Shown here: in pieces, positions 29,420-39,170 of the stretch
Layout of the letters: every line of letters begins with the position of its first letter
How positions within the stretch are numbered: the first letter of the stretch is position 1
From: Microcaldota archaeon
Lineage (GTDB): Archaea > Micrarchaeota > Micrarchaeia > Micrarchaeales > CABMGC01
Reading direction: 5' to 3'
Length of the DNA: 50,235 bases
Assembly: GCA_028867335.1 (NCBI GenBank)
Contig: JAGWGN010000006.1
Span: 1 to 50,235, forward strand
Position numbers and translations under genes: made by a program
Notes under the pieces: generated by a model
The model's database searches: none
What the model was told of the DNA's origin: nothing
Seen by the model: the letters and a program-made list of their open reading frames with translations, nothing else

Positions 29420-29821
29420 ATGGCAATCGCGCAGAAGGAGGATATATCGCATAGGATACGTGAGCTGGTGGACACAATCCAGCTGAACACCGCCTCGATA
29501 AGAAAGAACCTCAACGAGCAGGAGGTTGCGGATTTCCAAAAGCACTTCAAAAGGATTTGGAGCAAGCTGACCATAAAGGATTACGAATGGCTGACAAGCT
29601 ACCCAAACTTAAACGTGAGGTTGGCCATCGCCCAGAGCGATGATGCGGTGAGTTTCATACAGTCAAGCAACAGGAAGATGATCATCAAGATGGCTGAGGA
29701 CATGTTGGCTCCGGTAAGAGAGGCCCTGTCTGAAAGGATCTGCATCCCAAAGGACGTCAGGCTCTATGCCAAGGGGAATGAGGCATGCAGGGAAAGGGCA
29801 AACGCCTGGGCAAAATACTAG
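29420..29821 (+). CDS. Hypothetical protein
   Basis: 133-aa ORF with TATA-like upstream sequence. Confidence 0.6.
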   Translation: MAIAQKEDISHRIRELVDTIQLNTASIRKNLNEQEVADFQKHFKRIWSKLTIKDYEWLTSYPNLNVRLAIAQSDDAVSFIQSSNRKMIIKMAEDMLAPVREALSERICIPKDVRLYAKGNEACRERANAWAKY

Positions 29822-29824
29822 GGC

Positions 29825-29926
29825 TCATCTTGTTATCGAGTATCCCCTGACCTGCTCGTATAGGGCCTTTGCCTCCTTATTGTTTTCAAAGGACTTCCAT
29901 ATTAGCTTTACCTTCTTACCACATTC
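29825..29926 (-). pseudogene. C-terminal ORF remnant (ECGKKVKLIWKSFENNKEAKALYEQVRGYSITR*)
   Basis: Protein-like 33-codon open segment preceded in frame by TGA with no plausible start; at the left edge of the AT-rich island. Confidence 0.4.
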
Positions 29927-30079
29927 TCATCCTTGTTTTGGATTCGAGTGAGATAGTTCTAAAAATAGTTGAAGGTTGATAACAATCCCTCTAAAATATA
30001 TATCTATCCTTATCTCCGTCAAAACGGCGGAGAATAATCCTCTAATTTAAATCAGATTTTAGATTATATATAAGATTAT

Positions 30080-30871
30080 ATGTTAAAGGAAAACGAAAGA
30101 AAAAATGTTGTCATAATAAGTGATTGCAAAGATATAGCATACAATGAAATGAGAGCAGTAATTCTAAAAGAGATAAAAAGATATGGCGGTGAAAATAGAA
30201 TACTGGTAGAGCCTTTAGTTCCTGTTAAAGAGATGTCAGTAATAAATTGTTCCTTTTCATTAAGACTAATGGCAGAAATATATGAACCAAAAGAAACAGT
30301 TTTTGTTATCGTAGTTAATCCATTGAAAATTAAGGGTGAGAAATTGGTAGGTGAAACCGAAAATGGATTTAAGTTTGTTAGCGGAAATACAGGTGCAATA
30401 AACTGGCTTATAGAGGATTTTGGAATTAAGGAATTATATCAAATTAAAGACAAAGGTTTTTTACCGTTTGGGGGGAAATACTCAAATTCACCATTAGCTG
30501 CAAAAATTTCTTGTGGGAAGAAACTTTCAACTTTGGGAGATAGAGTTGGTAAAAAAATTTTAAGACCGTTAGAAATGTGTGCTGGAACTATAGTGCATAT
30601 AGATAATTTTGGGCTAATTAAATTTAAGGGTAAACTTGATTCATTTAAAGAAGGGGATAATTTGGATATATTTGTAAATGGAAAAAAGAAAATTGTTGCG
30701 ATATTTTCGGAGCGAATGATGAATAAGGAAGATGGAGTTTGGGTACTTTACAAGGGTAGTTCATTGAATGGAATGCCGGAGTTGGGTAAAGTTAGAGATC
30801 CTCAGGGTGCCGAAAAGTTAGGAGTAAAAATAGGGGATGTGATAACTTGGAAACTTAATAAAGCTTTATGA
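30080..30871 (+). CDS. Divergent SAM hydrolase/fluorinase-superfamily (DUF62, SAM hydroxide adenosyltransferase-like) protein
   Basis: NVVIISDCKDIAYNEMRAVILKEI, TVFVIVVNPLKIKGEKLVGE, GTIVHIDNFGLIKFKGKL, VRDPQGAEKLGVKIGDVITWKL collinear with archaeal DUF62 proteins (recalled pattern). Confidence 0.75.
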   Translation: MLKENERKNVVIISDCKDIAYNEMRAVILKEIKRYGGENRILVEPLVPVKEMSVINCSFSLRLMAEIYEPKETVFVIVVNPLKIKGEKLVGETENGFKFVSGNTGAINWLIEDFGIKELYQIKDKGFLPFGGKYSNSPLAAKISCGKKLSTLGDRVGKKILRPLEMCAGTIVHIDNFGLIKFKGKLDSFKEGDNLDIFVNGKKKIVAIFSERMMNKEDGVWVLYKGSSLNGMPELGKVRDPQGAEKLGVKIGDVITWKLNKAL

Positions 30872-31045
30872 TTGAGAATTGCGGGATTTGTACCACACAA
30901 GACTTATAAGATTTGTAGGGGGAATCTTCTTGAGGCGTTTGAGCGATATTTTGATGCCTCCATACAGAGTCTGAATCCTGTAGGATGCACGCTTTATGTA
31001 AGCCAATCTATAAACAGACAAATCAACCTAGTCCACAAAAGGTAG
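30872..31045 (+). CDS. Possible small ORF (TTG start) sharing an N-terminal segment with the 36970-37164 ORF
   Basis: In-frame LRIAGFVPHKTYKICRGNLLEAFERYFDASIQSLNP...* resembling PHKPYKDCRNKLLRAFGASF of the downstream copy. Confidence 0.35.
   Translation: MRIAGFVPHKTYKICRGNLLEAFERYFDASIQSLNPVGCTLYVSQSINRQINLVHKR
30893..30960 (+). repeat. R1, left member of an imperfect direct repeat
   Basis: CCACACAAGaCTTATAAGatTTGTAGG vs R2 CCACACAAGcCTTATAAGgaTTGTAGG: 24 of 27 positions identical, weaker similarity beyond. Confidence 0.6.
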
Positions 31046-31049
31046 TTTT

Positions 31050-32051
31050 ATGATTACGGAAAAAGGATTAAAATTAGATAGTATAATTAAAGGTCATGGC
31101 GACTTCTCAGAGATATTGAACTATAATGAACTTATAAATAAACTGGATAACAGGCACATCAGATCTATGTGGGGAGTCTCTGTTGGAAAAATACTACATT
31201 TCGGATACGACCCAATAATAGTTAAGCAATGGTCATTTTTAAGGGCAAATTTTGATCACACAATACTAATCGCCGATTTACATACTGCAATTGAAGAACC
31301 AAAAATTGAGAATCTGGAAGAAAAAAGTAGATATACTTACACCTATTTCAAAGATTTATGCAATATGCACGGGGCGTCAATATCTTATGGGTCTTCATTT
31401 CAATATCACTCAGAATACACACAACTCTTGTATAAACTACTTTCAATAACTCCAACAAAATCACTAGATAAAATAAGAATAGCGAACAAGCAAGGAACTA
31501 TAGGAAGTCTTGTCTACCCGATGATGCAGATTGCTGATAGTGCTTATCTAAAAGCAGACATAACATATGGGGGACAGAATCAAAGAGCCACGTATATGGT
31601 GGGTAGAGAAATTTTACCGAAATTAGGTCTACCAAAACCAGTAGTGTTACTTAGCCCAATGAGTAAGGACATCATGGGCAAGGAACTAGTAAAATCTACA
31701 ACAGCTACACGAATAACAATACATGATACCGATGAAACACTAAAGCAAAAGATTGGAAAAATGTTTGCCCCTCAGAGCATTGAGGATAATCCACTTCTAG
31801 ACAGTTTTAGATATTCAATAATACCGTGGTTTAAAAAGATTAATATAGATACAATTTATGGAAAAATTAGTATAAAGGATTACAATCAACTGTGCGAAAT
31901 ATTTCTAAAAAATGAAACAGACCCATACAAATTAAAACTTAGTGCATATTTTTATTTATCACAAAGGCTCAATAAGATAAGGAGATATTTTGACAAAAAG
32001 AGTTATCTGATTGATTGGATTGATATTGGGGCCCTAAATAAGAAGGTGTGA
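31050..32051 (+). CDS. TyrRS-like paralog with degenerate HIGH and KMSKS motifs
   Basis: Aligns throughout with the canonical TyrRS in the same island (LIADLHTAIEEPK, YPMMQIADSAYLKADITYGGQNQRATYMVGREILP); HIGH region is GKILHFGY, KMSKS region is MSKDIMGKELVKST. Confidence 0.88.
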   Translation: MITEKGLKLDSIIKGHGDFSEILNYNELINKLDNRHIRSMWGVSVGKILHFGYDPIIVKQWSFLRANFDHTILIADLHTAIEEPKIENLEEKSRYTYTYFKDLCNMHGASISYGSSFQYHSEYTQLLYKLLSITPTKSLDKIRIANKQGTIGSLVYPMMQIADSAYLKADITYGGQNQRATYMVGREILPKLGLPKPVVLLSPMSKDIMGKELVKSTTATRITIHDTDETLKQKIGKMFAPQSIEDNPLLDSFRYSIIPWFKKINIDTIYGKISIKDYNQLCEIFLKNETDPYKLKLSAYFYLSQRLNKIRRYFDKKSYLIDWIDIGALNKKV

Positions 32052-33115
32052 GTATGGAGAAATCAATCTTAGATAAAATTTCCGCTGAATTACTGAGAAA
32101 TAAGAAGACAATTTGTAGAGTTTCAGCAGATTGCACAAAAACACCCATAAAGTATCATTTTCAGGACTTAGAGTACCTAATTAAATTTTTAAATTCGCTC
32201 CCAAAACAGATTGAACTTAGTCAAAAATACATTCTAAAACCTAAAGGAACAGTGGTGATAGGGCTTTCAAAAAATGAGCCAATAATAACTTCTATCGTCC
32301 CAGTAATTTCAGCAATCTACGCAAATAATAAAGTAATAGTTAAACCTTCACGTGCAAATCTAAAGATAACAAGTTTACTAATAAAGATTTTAATAGACTC
32401 GGGAATTAAAAGAGAGAGGATAAAATTAGAATACAGAAATAAAAAAGAGATTAAAAAACTTATTTCTAGAGCAGATTTTGTTTTCTGGATGGGTAGTTAT
32501 AAGGTATGTAGAAAAATTTCTTTAATTTGTGCAAAACTTGGAAAAAAATTATATTTTGAAGCAGAGGGTAATGATATTGCGATAATAGATAACACTATGA
32601 AAAAAAGTTATAAAGTAGCGAGGATGTTGGTTAAAGAAATTTCACACCATAATGGTGAAAGATGCCAAGCAGTTAAAGGGATATATTTACATAAGGACAT
32701 AAGCAAAGATTTTAAATTAAATTTTTATAAAGAAATTGAGCTATTGAATATTGGAAATTATTTAAATAGTAATACTGAACTGAGCTTAGGTTGCGAATTT
32801 AAGATCACAAAATTTTCATTAAATCCTGTTTTTGGGGCATCAGTGTGGATTGAAGAGTACAGCTCTGATTTAGCTTTGATTAAAGCTCTGCAGAAAAATG
32901 GCTATTTCCTATCCCTTTCGATTTTCAGTAAAAAACCTTACGCGAAAATATTTAAAAACCTCATAAGAAAAGTAAGCTTTTCGAGGATTAACATTAATAA
33001 AGACCCTGGTTATATTAGACCTGATGAGTCGTGGGGCGGAATTAAAAAAAGTGGTATGTTTGGGCCAGAGGGGTGGGTCAACAAATTTTCCGATAGAAAT
33101 TACATAAATAGATAG
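32048..33115 (+). CDS. Short aldehyde dehydrogenase-superfamily protein
   Basis: PKGTVVIGLSKNEPIITSIVPVISAIYANNKVIVKPS, FEAEGNDIAIID (Glu), HHNGERCQAVKG (Cys), DESWGGIKKSGMFGPEGW; overlaps the TyrRS paralog stop by 4 nt. Confidence 0.88.
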   Translation: MSMEKSILDKISAELLRNKKTICRVSADCTKTPIKYHFQDLEYLIKFLNSLPKQIELSQKYILKPKGTVVIGLSKNEPIITSIVPVISAIYANNKVIVKPSRANLKITSLLIKILIDSGIKRERIKLEYRNKKEIKKLISRADFVFWMGSYKVCRKISLICAKLGKKLYFEAEGNDIAIIDNTMKKSYKVARMLVKEISHHNGERCQAVKGIYLHKDISKDFKLNFYKEIELLNIGNYLNSNTELSLGCEFKITKFSLNPVFGASVWIEEYSSDLALIKALQKNGYFLSLSIFSKKPYAKIFKNLIRKVSFSRININKDPGYIRPDESWGGIKKSGMFGPEGWVNKFSDRNYINR

Positions 33116-33117
33116 GA

Positions 33118-33939
33118 TTAGTCACCTTTTTCAACATAGTTAAGGAGGGAATTAATTTTTGATACTCTCTGTTTAATTGTATAATCGCCATAAAAAGAAT
33201 CAACAAATTTAAAATATAGTTTCTTTGACTTAATAAGCTCTAAAAATTGCTTTTTAATCCACTTCTCATAGCTATATGGGTAGACCTTATAGTAAATGAA
33301 TGCGTATTGAAGCATCATCCTTTCAATTACGTAGAGCAGATTTAATTGGGCCAATTTGTCTGGAGAAAAATTGGCAAGGTATTTTATTTTTTCAGTCAGA
33401 GCAAGCTTTAGAACGCGGATCCTTAAAATTCTTAGGCTTTCATCATAATAAGGAGTAAACTTTTCTTTTATTTTATGATAATTCGATCTAGGAAGATCAT
33501 AAAAACATATACCATAAATAAAAAGATTTCCAATGTGCCTCTCAAATTCGTCCTTTCTTATAAGATGGGGGGTTAGCTCAAAGTTTAAGTCCCAATCAAG
33601 AATAGCGATCTCAATTAGTATCCCTGAAATTTGAAGGTTTAATTCTATTCTGCGGTTATGATAATCTGAAATGTACCTTGGTGCTTCGATACATTTAATT
33701 TGTGGTCTGTCAATAATTTTCTTAATTGAATTTATAAGCTCTTTTGAATTATTTATCTGGTTTGTGTAGAAGCATAGGTCTAAATCAGATTTTCTTTTAG
33801 GACTATGGACTTGGGAGCCGATCAGTACTCCCGTGCAAATTTTAGGATGTCTTGATTTTTGAAAAACAGATAGAAGAAAACTCAAGGTTTCTAGATATTT
33901 TGGTGTAAGTACCTTCTTTAATATTTTACGATTCTTCAT
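33118..33939 (-). CDS. DNA polymerase beta-type nucleotidyltransferase (DUF4037-like)
   Basis: GVLIGSQVHSPKRKSDLDLCFYT (GS...SDLDL) followed by RIELNLQISGILIEIAILDWD. Confidence 0.75.
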   Translation of the reverse strand: MKNRKILKKVLTPKYLETLSFLLSVFQKSRHPKICTGVLIGSQVHSPKRKSDLDLCFYTNQINNSKELINSIKKIIDRPQIKCIEAPRYISDYHNRRIELNLQISGILIEIAILDWDLNFELTPHLIRKDEFERHIGNLFIYGICFYDLPRSNYHKIKEKFTPYYDESLRILRIRVLKLALTEKIKYLANFSPDKLAQLNLLYVIERMMLQYAFIYYKVYPYSYEKWIKKQFLELIKSKKLYFKFVDSFYGDYTIKQRVSKINSLLNYVEKGD

Positions 33940-33941
33940 TT

Positions 33942-34604
33942 CTAAGATTTTAGTCGATAGTACGCGAAGATATTTCCATTTAGCACTTTCACTTTATTTA
34001 GTTTAAGGGGATAAAGTAGCTTTTTAAAACCATTCCCATCAAATAAGGCCGGAGCATTGCTATTTCCAACTGCAAATGGAAAAAATGCAACAATCAGAAT
34101 GTCGATTAGTCTTTCATGGAGTAGAGAATAATTCAATATTCCACCACCCTCTACTAGAACCGATTTTATTCCTAATTTATAGAGATTTCTAAACAAGTCT
34201 TTAAGATTGACACGGTCCGTTCCACAAATAATCACCTTGGCACCAGTTCGAATTATTTTGTTAATTTTTATTTTGGATGCTGAAGAGGAAGTTGCTATTA
34301 TTGTTCGCTCTGGATTTAAAGTAAAAATCCTAGCGGTTATTGAGATCCTACACCTACTATCTAAAACGATTCTTTTAATTTTATTATTAATCCCGTAGAA
34401 CTCATTGCCTATTAGATTTGCATTATCTGCGATTATAGTATTACAGCCTACCATCACTGCATCGCTTTTTTCTTTTAGGGCAATTAGGGGCTTAAAGGCT
34501 TCTTTTGTTATACTTTTATCAAAAATCTTACTAGACATCATTTTGCCAGGACTTATTCTGCCATCTACACTAACTCCAGTTATTATCGTTATTTTTGGTC
34601 TTAT
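33942..34604 (-). CDS. RibD C-terminal-type pyrimidine reductase, apparent AUA start
   Basis: Extended translation (M/I)RPKITIITGVSVDGRISPGKMMSSK...KSDAVMVGCNTIIADNANL...GIKSVLVEGGGILNYSLL; conserved N-terminus lies upstream of the first ATG. Confidence 0.82.
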   Translation of the reverse strand: MRPKITIITGVSVDGRISPGKMMSSKIFDKSITKEAFKPLIALKEKSDAVMVGCNTIIADNANLIGNEFYGINNKIKRIVLDSRCRISITARIFTLNPERTIIATSSSASKIKINKIIRTGAKVIICGTDRVNLKDLFRNLYKLGIKSVLVEGGGILNYSLLHERLIDILIVAFFPFAVGNSNAPALFDGNGFKKLLYPLKLNKVKVLNGNIFAYYRLKS

Positions 34605-34715
34605 TTAATCACCAATATTTGTTGTGTGATATGAAAATATAAACCCTTTTTAGATAAAAACGAATTGGTGATATATGTTTATAAATAACAAGAAAACAAT
34701 AGTTTCAGTAGGGAA

Positions 34716-35750
34716 TTGATAATGGAATTAAAAGATAGAACTGAGATAGCTTCTAGAAATGCAAAGGAGATAGTTACTAAAGAAGACCTTAACGAGCTTT
34801 TGAGGAAGGGGCCTTCGTTTAATTTTTATTACGGGACTGCACCAACAGGACCAGTGCATATTGGTTATATGGTGCCACTGGGCAAGGTCGCAGATTTAAT
34901 AAAAAGTGGGGGAGATGCAAAAATATTAATTGCGGATTATCATGCCTACCTAGATGATAGAAAGAGCCCTTGGGAGGAAATTTCTATTAGAAGTGATTAT
35001 TATCAGAAGTGTATAGAGTTGATTCTTGGAGAATTTAAAGATAAAGTTGAATTTGTAAGAGGTTCAAGTTTTCAAACGAGTCCAGAATATGTTTCAGACT
35101 TATTCAGAATATCGGGGGAAACAACTGCAACTAGAGCACAAAGGGCAGCCTCAGAAGTGTGTAGGATGAGGGAGCCAAAGGTATCAGAGTTGATGTACCC
35201 GTTATTGCAGACACTTGATGTCAAGTATTTAGAATCTGACCTAGTAGTAGGGGGGATGGATCAAAGGCATATCTACATGCTAAGTAGAGCCATTCTGCCT
35301 ACGATCAAATGGGAAAAACCAGTATGCATATTTACCCCTTTAATCACCTCGCTAAAGGGGCCTGGAGAAAAGATGTCTGCGAGCATAAAAGGGACATACA
35401 TAAAAGTTCATGAATCAGAAAATGAACTAAGGAAGCTTGTCTCTTCAGCACATTGTCCACCGAAAGAGATTGAGAGCAATCCAATATTGGACGTTGTCAG
35501 ATATATTATATTGCCAATAAAGAGCATGTTAAAAGTCGAGAGGGATGCTAAATTCGGAGGAGATGTGGCATATGAGGATTATGAATCTTTAGAGAATGAT
35601 TTTAATGAGGGTAGATTGCATCCGGCAGATCTTAAAAACGGTGTTTCATCAGCCTTACTCGAAATGACTAAGCCCATAAGAGACTATTTTGAGAAGCATA
35701 CATCCCTCAAAGAAGATATAAATAAGACTTATGCGCAAGATTTATTCTAA
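34716..35750 (+). CDS. tyrS: Tyrosyl-tRNA synthetase (archaeal/eukaryotic type)
   Basis: FYYGTAPTGPVHIGYMVPLGKVADLIKSGGDAKILIADYHAYLDDRKSPWEE, YPLLQTLDVKYLESDLVVGGMDQRHIYM, GPGEKMSASIKG. Confidence 0.95.
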   Translation: MIMELKDRTEIASRNAKEIVTKEDLNELLRKGPSFNFYYGTAPTGPVHIGYMVPLGKVADLIKSGGDAKILIADYHAYLDDRKSPWEEISIRSDYYQKCIELILGEFKDKVEFVRGSSFQTSPEYVSDLFRISGETTATRAQRAASEVCRMREPKVSELMYPLLQTLDVKYLESDLVVGGMDQRHIYMLSRAILPTIKWEKPVCIFTPLITSLKGPGEKMSASIKGTYIKVHESENELRKLVSSAHCPPKEIESNPILDVVRYIILPIKSMLKVERDAKFGGDVAYEDYESLENDFNEGRLHPADLKNGVSSALLEMTKPIRDYFEKHTSLKEDINKTYAQDLF

Positions 35751-36937
35751 TTTTGCACAGTATTTTTCAGGGCAGAGATTAGTTTTTCTATGATTTCTTT
35801 AGAAACCGAAGCGTGGGAAAGCGACAGAAAACAAGATTCGGAATGATTAGGTGGGAGGAATATTCCCCTTTTTGCAAGCAGACTCGCAAAAAATGCATAT
35901 TTTTCTGAGCTACTTTTTTTAAGATCCCCATTATTTATAAGTATGTCTTTTGAAAAAGCAATCCCGAACATTGGGCCTTGGGAGGAAATCTTTATGCCAT
36001 CATACTTTTCAACCATATCTCTAATTGGATTTATTATTTGTTTAGCCTCCTTGTGCAACTGATTTAATCCCCCAAATTTCAATTTGGAGACGGTATAAAT
36101 GGCCGCAGTAAGCGATAATGGATTAGCATTGAATGTGCCACCTAAAAATGCACCTTGATCGGAAAACAAATCCATTATCTCTTTTTTACCACACACGGCA
36201 GAAATTGGAAATCCACCACCCATCGCCTTTGAGAATGTTGAAAGATCTGGAATAACTTTGTAGAGTTTTTGTGCGCCACCGATTGAGACTCTAAATCCTG
36301 TAACAATCTCATCAAAAATTAACAAAACACCGTATTCGTTACATAATTTCTTAACGGAATTCAAATAATTTTTCTCTGGAAGGATACAATTTGAATTCGT
36401 CATTATAGGTTCCATTATCAGTGCAGCATATTCTTCGTTTTTAAAGTGCTTTTCAATTGCGTCTAAATCATTAAATTCTACATAATCTACCGTAGAATTC
36501 AGGCATGATGGTCTTCCTTTGGTTGGCATCAAAACATCATTTGCACCATGATAATTACCAGTAATATCCAAGACCTTTTCTTTCTTTGTAAAGCATCTTG
36601 CCACCCTAATCGCATACATAGTTGCTTCCGAACCAGTTGTGGCAAATTTGATAGATTTTGCATTTGGTATTGTAGTGTGTAACAAATCTGCAAGCTTTTG
36701 TTCCAGTACTGAAGGTGCAGGATATAGAATTCCTTTGTATAATTGAGAGGAAACGGACTCTAGTAGCCCAAAATCAGAATGCCCCAATATTGCCGCCCCG
36801 TAGGAACTCCATAAGTCAATATATTTGTGTAGTTTTACATCATATATAAATGGGCCATTTGCTTTGCAAATTGAAAGTGGGTAACTCTTTGGATAAATCA
36901 TGGGTGAATTAATTTTACCGGCAATGTAATTCGACAT
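35747..36937 (-). CDS. Class III PLP aminotransferase, glutamate-1-semialdehyde aminomutase-like
   Basis: FIYDVKLHKYIDLWSSYGAAILGHS, TTGSEATMYAIRVARCFT, LLIFDEIVTGFRVSIGGAQKLYKVIPDLSTFSKAMGGGFPISAVCG (PLP Lys), FLGGTFNANPLSLTAAI. Confidence 0.93.
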   Translation of the reverse strand: MSNYIAGKINSPMIYPKSYPLSICKANGPFIYDVKLHKYIDLWSSYGAAILGHSDFGLLESVSSQLYKGILYPAPSVLEQKLADLLHTTIPNAKSIKFATTGSEATMYAIRVARCFTKKEKVLDITGNYHGANDVLMPTKGRPSCLNSTVDYVEFNDLDAIEKHFKNEEYAALIMEPIMTNSNCILPEKNYLNSVKKLCNEYGVLLIFDEIVTGFRVSIGGAQKLYKVIPDLSTFSKAMGGGFPISAVCGKKEIMDLFSDQGAFLGGTFNANPLSLTAAIYTVSKLKFGGLNQLHKEAKQIINPIRDMVEKYDGIKISSQGPMFGIAFSKDILINNGDLKKSSSEKYAFFASLLAKRGIFLPPNHSESCFLSLSHASVSKEIIEKLISALKNTVQN

Positions 36938-36969
36938 TAAGTTTAATTATCAAAAGAAGATTATTAAAT

Positions 36970-37164
36970 ATGGGTTCAGACAGCGATCTATTTCTTCCAC
37001 ACAAGCCTTATAAGGATTGTAGGAATAAGTTGCTTAGGGCGTTTGGAGCATCTTTTGCATTCCCTGCACACTCCTTGCGCCTTTACCGTGATTTTTGGTG
37101 GATTTTGTCTCTTGGGCCATTCTTGCGCCATTTTGTCCTCGACAACGGGAAAAGGTATAAATAG
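36970..37164 (+). CDS. Possible small ORF carrying the R2 repeat
   Basis: MGSDSDLFLPHKPYKDCRNKLLRAFGASFAFPAHSLRLYRDFWW...; N-terminal similarity to the 30872-31045 ORF. Confidence 0.35.
   Translation: MGSDSDLFLPHKPYKDCRNKLLRAFGASFAFPAHSLRLYRDFWWILSLGPFLRHFVLDNGKRYK
36997..37064 (+). repeat. R2, right member of the imperfect direct repeat; contains the palindrome CCTTATAAGG
   Basis: See R1. Confidence 0.6.
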
Positions 37165-37181
37165 TTGTAATAATTTAGAGT

Positions 37182-39170
37182 ATGTTGGTTTGGATGAAGT
37201 TCAAGACTACTGCTGATATCAAGATACCTGAAAGCACTGTCGACCAGATAATAGGGCAGGAAAACGCCGTGGCGATAGTCAAAAAGGCGTCAAAGCAGCA
37301 CAGAAACATCCTGCTGATAGGCGAGCCGGGGACAGGAAAGACAATGCTTGCCCAGGCGATGGCGGAGCTCTTGCCGATCGCCTCGCTTGAGGACGTGCTC
37401 GTCTACAAGAACGTGAACGACGAGAACCGCCCGATAGTTAAGGTGGTGAAGACCTACCCGAACCCTCCGGAGAAGGGAAAGCCGCTGGGTGACGGGCAGG
37501 GGAGGCAGATCGTGCAGAAGGAGAAGCTCAAGGGGAGGCTTGAGAGCGGGCAGGGAAACAAGAGCGTTGTGCCGATCGTCATACTGATCGTAGCGGTACT
37601 ATTCATATTGTCGATATCCAACATATTCACCGGGTACGAGATCGTCGTTCTCGCGGCGCTCATACTCGGAAGCCTGATCTTCGGGTCGATGGCACTCTTT
37701 GTTGGCGGGCTCACCAAAAGGGTAGGGGTCCTGCCGGGAATGTTTGAGAGCAACGAGCCAAAGCTCATTGTCGACAACACAGGCAAGGAGCACGCGCCAT
37801 TCGTTGACGGGACGGGATCGAAGGCGGGATCGCTCTTTGGGGACGTAAAGCACGACCCGCTCCAGTCCGGCGGGCTTGGGACTCCGCCGCACCTGAGGGT
37901 CGAGAGCGGATCGGTCCACAAGGCGAACAACGGCGTTCTATTCATCGATGAAGTGGCAAACCTCGAGCCAAGGTCGCAGCAGGAGCTGCTCACCGCAATG
38001 CAGGAGAAGAGGTACTCGATAACCGGCCAGAGCGAACTGAGCTCTGGTGCAATCGTGAAGACTGAGCCCGTACCATGCGACTTCATACTTGTCGCGGCGG
38101 GAAACCTCCAGGACATACAGAAGATGCACCCTGCGCTCAGGTCAAGGATTCGGGGTTACGGCTACGAGGTCTACATGCAGTCAAGCATGGACGACACTGC
38201 GGCAAACAGGGATAAGATAGTTCACTTCATCGCGCAGGAGATCAAGAAGGACGGGAAGATCCCGCCGTTCGACTACGAGGCGTGCATGGAGATAATAGAG
38301 GAGGCGAGGCGAAGGAGCGGGAGAAAGAACAAGCTCTCCCTTGTGCTAAGGGACCTCGGAGGGCTCATCAGGGCTGCTGGGGACATTGCAATCGAGAACG
38401 GAAAGAAGGTTGTCACAAAGCAGGAGGTCATGGGGGCGAAGAGGCTCGCGAAGCCGATCGAGGCGCAGTACGTTGAGCAGACCCTCGAATACAGAAAGGA
38501 CTACAAGGTATTCAACACTGAAGGGTTCGGAATCGGAAGGGTTAACGGGCTTGCGGTCGTCGGATCGTCATACCTTAGCGCGGGAATAATCATCCCAATA
38601 GTCGCAGAGGTTACCCCGGCGAGCTCGAGGTCGGAAGGGAAGCTGATTGCGACAGGAAAGCTAGGCAAGCTTGCGCAGGAGGCGGTCAAGAACATCAGCG
38701 CAGTGATCAAGAGGCACATGAGCCGCGACATAGCAAGCTACGACATCCACGTGCAGTTCCTGCAGACCTATGAGGGGGTCGAGGGGGACAGCGCAAGCAT
38801 CTCGGTTGCAATCAGCGTGATCTCCGCGATGGAGGGAATACCTGTAGACCAGAGCGTCGCGATGACCGGATCCCTGTCAGTGAGGGGGGACGTGCTTCCG
38901 GTCGGCGGGATAACCGGCAAGGTGGAGGCTGCAATCGATGCAGGGATGAAGAAGGTCATAATTCCAAAGAGCAACCTAAACGACATCTACATCGACAAGG
39001 CGAAGCTGAGGAAGATCAAGATAATAACGGTCAAGAACATAGCGGACGTGATCGAGGCGGCACTCAAGAAGAGCTCGAGAAGGGATGCTATAATAAGGGA
39101 GCTGAGAAAGTACATGAGTGCGGACTACAAGGAGAAGCCTCCGCTTGACGTTGATGTAAAGGGCAAGTGA
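37182..39170 (+). CDS. lonB: Archaeal membrane-anchored ATP-dependent protease LonB
   Basis: [22 protein letters not shown], two internal TM helices, [85 protein letters not shown]. Confidence 0.97.

Follow-up and report, generated by a model that had tools for sequence, protein, structure and literature searches.

A foreign AT-rich island carrying a degenerate tyrosyl-tRNA synthetase paralog has replaced the native synthetase gene in place in a Microcaldota archaeon

The stretch of Microcaldota DNA analysed here (the window, 50,235 nucleotides (nt) long) is contig C58 (JAGWGN010000006.1) of draft genome G000, which comprises 0.96 Mb in 61 contigs and is 82.7% complete. It contains a horizontally acquired gene cluster that has replaced the tyrosyl-tRNA synthetase (TyrRS) gene of the host, tyrS, an essential gene, at its own locus. 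The island spans ~7 kb, from ~29.9 to 37.0 kb, and is filled by seven intact open reading frames (ORFs), genes A to G, among which B is a degenerate TyrRS paralog and F is a canonical TyrRS from a foreign clade. The cluster is tentatively read as a tRNA-dependent small-molecule pathway with a self-immune TyrRS, installed through the replacement of tyrS, an interpretation that we favour with somewhat less than even confidence.

The island is set apart by its composition. The mean guanine-cytosine (GC) content over 29,931-36,960 is 0.338, against about 0.50 on both sides, and segments of the same length elsewhere in the contig (n = 289) average 0.490, with a standard deviation of 0.022 and a minimum of 0.418. 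The GC steps are sharp at about 29.9 and 37.0 kb. Third-position GC is 0.24-0.35 in the island genes compared with 0.66-0.81 in most flanking housekeeping genes, and AAA accounts for 70% of lysine codons in the island versus 10% in the flanking housekeeping genes. The original prediction, made from the sequence alone, of an AT-rich island with a compositional step at its boundaries is borne out by these values, and the two hand counts of G/C that accompanied it (18 of 60 at 32461-32520 and 42 of 60 at 37861-37920) are exact. Its interval began at 29822; the first ~100 bases of that interval are native and represent the 3' end of the old tyrS.

In all four congeners compared at the tyrS-lonB site (G001, G002, G003 and G004), the neighbourhood is conserved and consists of RfcS, a methyltransferase, topoisomerase I, two DMT genes, the site itself, lonB and topoisomerase VI A, with the genus's own TyrRS occupying the site between the DMT genes and lonB on the minus strand. 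In the host, the last 33 codons of this native gene persist as a scar on the minus strand (29,828-29,926), identified by a tblastn search with the congener TyrRS (64% identity to the last 33 amino acids (aa) of the G001 TyrRS, E 3e-8) and by a DNA match, positions 29819-29891 being 79% identical to G001. Nothing is left of the N-terminal part of the native TyrRS at the host locus. The scar gives way to an AT-rich junction upstream of gene A (29927-30079, assigned to no strand, GC 0.29). On the lonB side the sequence is native from about 36,990, as alignment to the intergenic sequences of G001-G004 indicates, and the native tyrS-lonB intergenic sequence, termed IG (36990-37181, plus strand), forms the right boundary of the island. 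The two joins, the scar and a direct repeat described below make a misjoin of the draft assembly less likely.

Gene F (34722-35750, plus strand) scores as a TyrRS, with 362.5 bits to PRK08560 against a cut-off of 220 and with HIGY, KMSAS and HPADLK intact. In a 76-sequence tree, it clusters with enzymes of Thorarchaeota and Aenigmatarchaeota (support 100/97), and the native TyrRSs lie at a great distance from it. A PF00579 profile search across the whole assembly returns F, B and one tryptophanyl-tRNA synthetase (TrpRS) as the only genes of these two types, so F is the sole TyrRS seen; the missing 17% of the genome might hold a further copy, although the ancestral one has vanished from its locus. 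The idea that F is a spare copy was rejected, as the assembly holds no second TyrRS and the native gene is reduced to a scar. Located inside the island and of different origin, F has replaced the native copy rather than joined it.

Genes for aminoacyl-tRNA synthetases (aaRSs) are often exchanged between lineages, a point in favour of a plain xenologous displacement, in which a usable TyrRS arrived on a piece of foreign archaeal DNA that recombined close to tyrS, and the old gene decayed. F would then be a housekeeping TyrRS, B a decaying or moonlighting duplicate, and A, C, D, E and G unrelated passengers. Such a displacement is also favoured by an F-like TyrRS (45% identity) in G049, a genome of the same order (G049:C34:19345-20340, L065): this copy lies in an ordinary housekeeping neighbourhood, so an F-like TyrRS occurs alone in the order too. 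The set formed by C-E and G, moreover, turned up nowhere else in the homology searches, in which relatives were throughout sampled rather than exhausted. Across 40 genome loci around F-type TyrRS genes, none of B-E or G lies nearby, except for one weak match to G over a 93-aa fragment. Opposed to this are the intact 333-aa ORF of B, which is coupled to C and keeps its substrate pocket, the linkage of A to an aaRS pair in other genomes too, and the presence of two different foreign class Ic aaRSs in one host. Plain displacement is a serious alternative, and on balance a somewhat unlikely one. Even so read, the locus is an unusually clear case of an essential synthetase swapped in place, its scar still legible. 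As in other xenologous aaRS displacements, a foreign synthetase has ousted the resident one; unlike in ordinary cases, the scar can still be seen at the locus, and a degenerate paralog and five other genes came in with the foreign DNA.

In Thorarchaeota-type genomes (L159 6869-12798, L160 4653-9542 and L119), the nearest relatives of F stand in a conserved run of DUF362, UbiA, PHP, LPG_synthase_TM and TyrRS genes. In L159, a second TyrRS gene, of a different type, faces the F-type gene in convergent orientation. The F-type enzyme of these genomes looks accessory, perhaps tied to lipid chemistry.

Gene B (31050-32051, plus strand) reaches 173 bits to PRK08560, below the TyrRS cut-off. The residues responsible for tyrosine, ATP and anticodon recognition are well established in archaeal TyrRSs. 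In MjTyrRS numbering, Tyr32 is replaced by Met in B, KMSKS by ELVKS, and the anticodon motif HPxDLK by DPYKLK, while Y151, Q155, D158 and Q173, the alpha-amino pocket and an HxGY form of HIGH are kept. These losses are unique in a 75-sequence alignment, and the label 'repurposed TyrRS' given to B in the original prediction fits them. The branch leading to B measures 2.84 in the 76-sequence tree, against a median of 0.26, and because it is very long the exact place of B is unsure. The structure model of B, built with 25 TyrRS relatives, has a mean predicted local distance difference test (pLDDT) score of 87.6, and its best PDB match is the A. fulgidus TyrRS, aligned over the whole length with a template modelling score of 0.84. 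As the input alignment consisted of TyrRSs, the model shows compatibility with the TyrRS fold and says nothing on function. No ortholog of B is present in 60 relatives, 371 Nanoarchaeota-type genomes and 227 Asgard genomes, where only ordinary TyrRSs are matched, at 130 bits or less. A search for gene C in 301 phylum genomes gives no match at 1e-15. The island genes are not housekeeping orthologs of relatives, in line with what had been predicted.

Gene A (30080-30871, plus strand) encodes a protein of the SAM_HAT fold (Pfam SAM_HAT_N, 28.6 bits, cut-off 26.3). Its best PDB match is MJ1651 (1.5e-9), and the SalL chlorinase is matched weakly (E 0.01). It is a distant member of the fold superfamily that contains the S-adenosylmethionine (SAM) hydrolases (DUF62), the fluorinase and the chlorinase (PMC10491745). 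As an (R)-SAM hydrolase it scores 14.5 bits with NF058624 against a cut-off of 350, and VDP and FHGRD are changed to VNP and FGGKY. Unlike the DUF62 hydrolases, A is without the Asp-Arg-His triad, as are the halogenases, carries conserved substitutions of its own and has aaRS neighbours. A structure model built without relatives reached a pLDDT of 33 and is unusable. Among the 301 phylum genomes, orthologs of A occur just in G171 and G172, which belong to another genus of the family, at about 50% identity, and the three members keep Asn and Gly-Gly-Lys at the positions of the hydrolase triad. Since the three orthologs conserve these substituted positions, and since a review describes the His-Arg-Asp triad as strict among DUF62 hydrolases and missing from the halogenases (PMC10491745), A more likely represents a neofunctional family than a decaying hydrolase.

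In G171 and G172 (L165 8078-11174 and L166 7437-10583), A lies at the end of a tight run in which a canonical TrpRS is followed after 15 nt by a TrpRS paralog and then by A, the paralog and A being separated by 45 nt in G172 and overlapping in G171. At 138-146 bits, the paralog stays under the trpS cut-off of 177, and its KMSKS is changed to TMSSS. The combination of an aaRS, a degenerate copy of it and a triad-less SAM_HAT protein is thus seen for two amino acids, Tyr and Trp. Co-occurrence of the island genes in related genomes, one of the expectations attached to the original prediction, holds for this core, which recurs with TrpRS in G171 and G172; the full set is found in none of the related genomes sampled.

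The sole TrpRS of the host is encoded elsewhere, at C11:4681-5778 (L002/L174), with a GC content of 0.43 between flanks of 0.52. It is 61-63% identical to the canonical TrpRS (TrpRS1) of G171 and G172 and 29-37% identical to the TrpRS of 38 relatives, including the congeners G001 and G003, and it forms a separate clade with the two TrpRS1 proteins. All three A-positive genomes carry this TrpRS type; as the type was determined in about 40 of the 301 phylum genomes, the association with A is suggestive. Judged from these sequence comparisons, the host appears to have replaced both class Ic synthetases, and the loss of the native trpS could in principle be an assembly gap. The assignment of the host's third class Ic gene as a vertically inherited TrpRS was dropped, since the gene proved foreign.

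The exchange of both class Ic synthetases in the host, together with the fact that A accompanies swapped or duplicated synthetases in 3/3 genomes having it, is also expected of an immunity island, with which the host would survive a compound of its neighbours that inhibits TyrRS and TrpRS, without making it. F and the C11 TrpRS would be resistant replacements, and A, B and the remaining proteins would bind, modify or destroy the inhibitor. A precedent is the auxiliary resistant TrpRS that serves as a defence against indolmycin (PMC6804068), and F carries an HxxY motif of the kind present in human TyrRS (HVAY), an enzyme that nucleoside sulfamates hijack less readily than its Plasmodium counterpart (PMC7613620). 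However, the HxxY motif is common in the clade of F, C, E and G look biosynthetic, and the island contains neither a transporter nor a known resistance enzyme, which leaves pure immunity a decidedly unlikely explanation.

The recurrence of aaRS copies paired with a SAM-fold protein, for Tyr as for Trp, bears on a further possibility, namely that the module works on tRNA or in the quality control of translation. B and its Trp counterpart (Trp2) would bind tRNA or aminoacyl-tRNA, and A would use SAM to modify either the tRNA or the aminoacyl group. Specialised metabolism is rare in DPANN genomes, which favours such a role, but in SAM_HAT enzymes the acceptor of the adenosyl group of SAM is water or halide, and we know of no tRNA-modifying member. 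As the anticodon-recognition residues of B are lost and C and G are left without a role, this possibility is improbable. A broader proposal, which we consider unlikely, holds that an undescribed archaeal module, in which a class Ic aaRS and its degenerate copy are joined by a triad-less SAM_HAT adenosyltransferase, makes aminoacylated adenosine analogues in Tyr and Trp versions, and that its carriers swap the essential TyrRS and TrpRS for immune xenologs. To our knowledge, such a module would be the first case of tRNA-dependent specialised metabolism in DPANN archaea.

The island can be compared with three known systems. B shares the arrangement of AcmF/SbzA-type transferases, in which an aaRS fold with damaged activation motifs is accompanied by a full synthetase in the cluster. 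In the ascamycin (acm) cluster, the resistant copy is AcmD, which charges tRNA(Ala) (PMC12945691; gene table in PMC4257720), and AcmF, without ATP-binding residues, transfers alanine from tRNA onto a nucleoside sulfamate (PMC12945691). Like acm, the island combines a full synthetase with a degenerate synthetase-like protein of the same specificity and with an aminotransferase. Unlike acm, which has a class II alanyl-tRNA synthetase of Streptomyces and keeps the native synthetase, the island has an archaeal class I TyrRS, is without sulfate genes, transporter and hydrolase, and comes with a destroyed native synthetase. In the sbz (SB-203208) cluster, SbzA moves isoleucine from tRNA and is clustered with the aldehyde dehydrogenase (ALDH) SbzJ (PMC6331615); the island likewise brings together a class I aaRS-like protein and an aldehyde dehydrogenase. 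SbzA keeps slightly changed HIGH and KMSKS motifs and charges tRNA weakly, whereas KMSKS is fully lost in B, and the sbz cluster, unlike the island, has carrier proteins, adenylation and GNAT enzymes. Agrocin 84 is similarly a mobile gene set with a second synthetase, AgnB2, an immune leucyl-tRNA synthetase (LeuRS) that protects the producer (PMC5059758). AgnB2 is plasmid-borne beside an intact chromosomal LeuRS and non-essential, unlike F, which is apparently the sole TyrRS. The analogy to agrocin drawn in the original prediction, which paired a biosynthetic aaRS-like protein with a resistant aaRS copy, gains real support, since F took over from a native TyrRS that was destroyed at its own locus.

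The catalytic steps, the product and the immunity within the tRNA-dependent pathway favoured here are what we infer by analogy. F, as the sole TyrRS found and with its motifs intact, would charge tRNA(Tyr) for the cell. B, having lost KMSKS and the anticodon-recognition residues and kept the alpha-amino pocket, would no longer charge tRNA; like AcmF, which handles alanine, it would most likely pass tyrosine or a similar amino acid from an aminoacyl-tRNA on to a small molecule. A would probably move the adenosyl group of SAM to a non-water nucleophile, and the resulting 5'-substituted adenosine could act as the acceptor or as an adenosine monophosphate mimic. Making or finishing the amine-bearing part would fall to C, E, G and D. 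F would serve both as the supply of tyrosyl-tRNA and as the self-immune copy, so that the native TyrRS could be, or had to be, lost. Counted in favour of this pathway are the in-place displacement of tyrS by a TyrRS of another clade, the residue losses of B, the conserved substitutions of A, the TrpRS pairs beside A in G171 and G172, the foreign TrpRS of the host, the precedents above and the tight gene packing: the pairs B/C and F/G share 4 nt, and gaps of 2 nt separate C from D and D from E.

Several observations weigh against the pathway. D and E run opposite to B and C, and G runs opposite to F. No homolog of C, D, E or G lies beside A in G171 or G172, so these four genes may be passengers. 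The TrpRS paralog of these genomes keeps HLGH and MSSS, and the Trp version may for this reason still activate an amino acid. A loss of function in B is conceivable from its sequence and its branch length. The clade of F shows no direct sign of inhibitor resistance, and the island has no adenylation, carrier-protein, sulfation or export genes.

The remaining genes are enzymes of varied assignment. Gene C (32048-33115, plus strand, with an alternative ATG start at 32054) encodes a short aldehyde dehydrogenase (Pfam Aldedh, 3e-25) that keeps the catalytic Asn, Lys, Glu and Cys and, outside the phylum, has no more than generic ALDH matches. Gene D (33118-33939, minus strand) resembles pol-beta-type nucleotidyltransferases through weak Polbeta (0.0099) and MntA (0.011) matches and a GSQ..SDLDL motif, and has no PDB match. 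All seven genes named in the prediction are present as intact ORFs, D being only weakly pol-beta-like (E 0.01). Gene E (33942-34601, minus strand) encodes a RibD_C reductase (8.7e-34; PDB 2azn, 1.6e-26). Its 199-aa ORF, with the N-terminus excluded, scores 130 bits, below the cut-off of 186 for the archaeal riboflavin reductase TIGR01508, and E is for this reason best described as a RibD_C fold member of uncertain substrate. A conserved N-terminus, RPKITIITGVSVDGRIS, extends upstream of the first ATG (34541) and directly follows a stop codon (34541-34604); ATA is its sole possible start, with no ordinary start codon, and a non-canonical start, a sequencing error or damage are all possible. Gene G (35747-36937, minus strand) encodes a class-III aminotransferase of the glutamate-1-semialdehyde aminomutase (GSAM) family. 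It falls short of GSAM itself, with 335 bits to hemL against 527, and its gate loop is about 12 aa shorter than that of the matching GSAM in the PDB (5e-71).

Between A and B lies IG' (30886-30953, plus strand), a second copy of the host tyrS-lonB intergenic sequence that forms a direct repeat with 36990-37057 of IG (68 nt, same orientation, 74% identity). The local alignment of IG' with IG scores 70, against 20.6 +/- 2.9 for shuffles and at most 30 for congener intergenic sequences. As IG' matches the local IG better than the congener versions, the repeat arose in this lineage. A search of 36 relatives and the host with the repeat pattern gives two host matches, a single match at the corresponding site of both G002 and G004, and one in G015, which was set aside as an unrelated promoter. 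The repeats flank B-G and leave A outside. A sits where part of tyrS was deleted; the new DNA there amounts to 945 bp and the lost part to about 980 bp. No integrase or transposase is found among the ORFs A-G, and the route of integration is a matter of inference. A viral or plasmid origin was rejected: A has no relatives in viral contigs or plasmids, B and C have none in viral contigs, and B has none in phages, its plasmid matches being just ordinary haloarchaeal TyrRSs at 26%. PADLOC gives no result for the island.

The tyrS-lonB intergenic region of the genus (37000-37100 of the window; L066, L068 and L069 near 10.2-10.7 kb) contains a TATA-like box and, after it, a sequence whose ends are complementary, reading GGCGTTTAGAG...CTCTAAACGC in several congeners. 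It could be a small RNA gene; a search of the repeat against Rfam gave no match to any known RNA.

The usual picture of DPANN archaea is one of pared-down, dependent organisms that have little specialised metabolism. If the proposed pathway is correct, a cluster that seized an essential translation gene and brought a pseudo-synthetase along would represent specialised chemistry in a ~1 Mb genome. F, and perhaps the TrpRS, would be natural synthetases selected for immunity, and the island would offer an archaeal lead to aminoacyl-nucleoside compounds like those that hijack TyrRS in malaria parasites. The recurring unit of A, an aaRS and a degenerate aaRS provides a concrete marker for finding further such systems.

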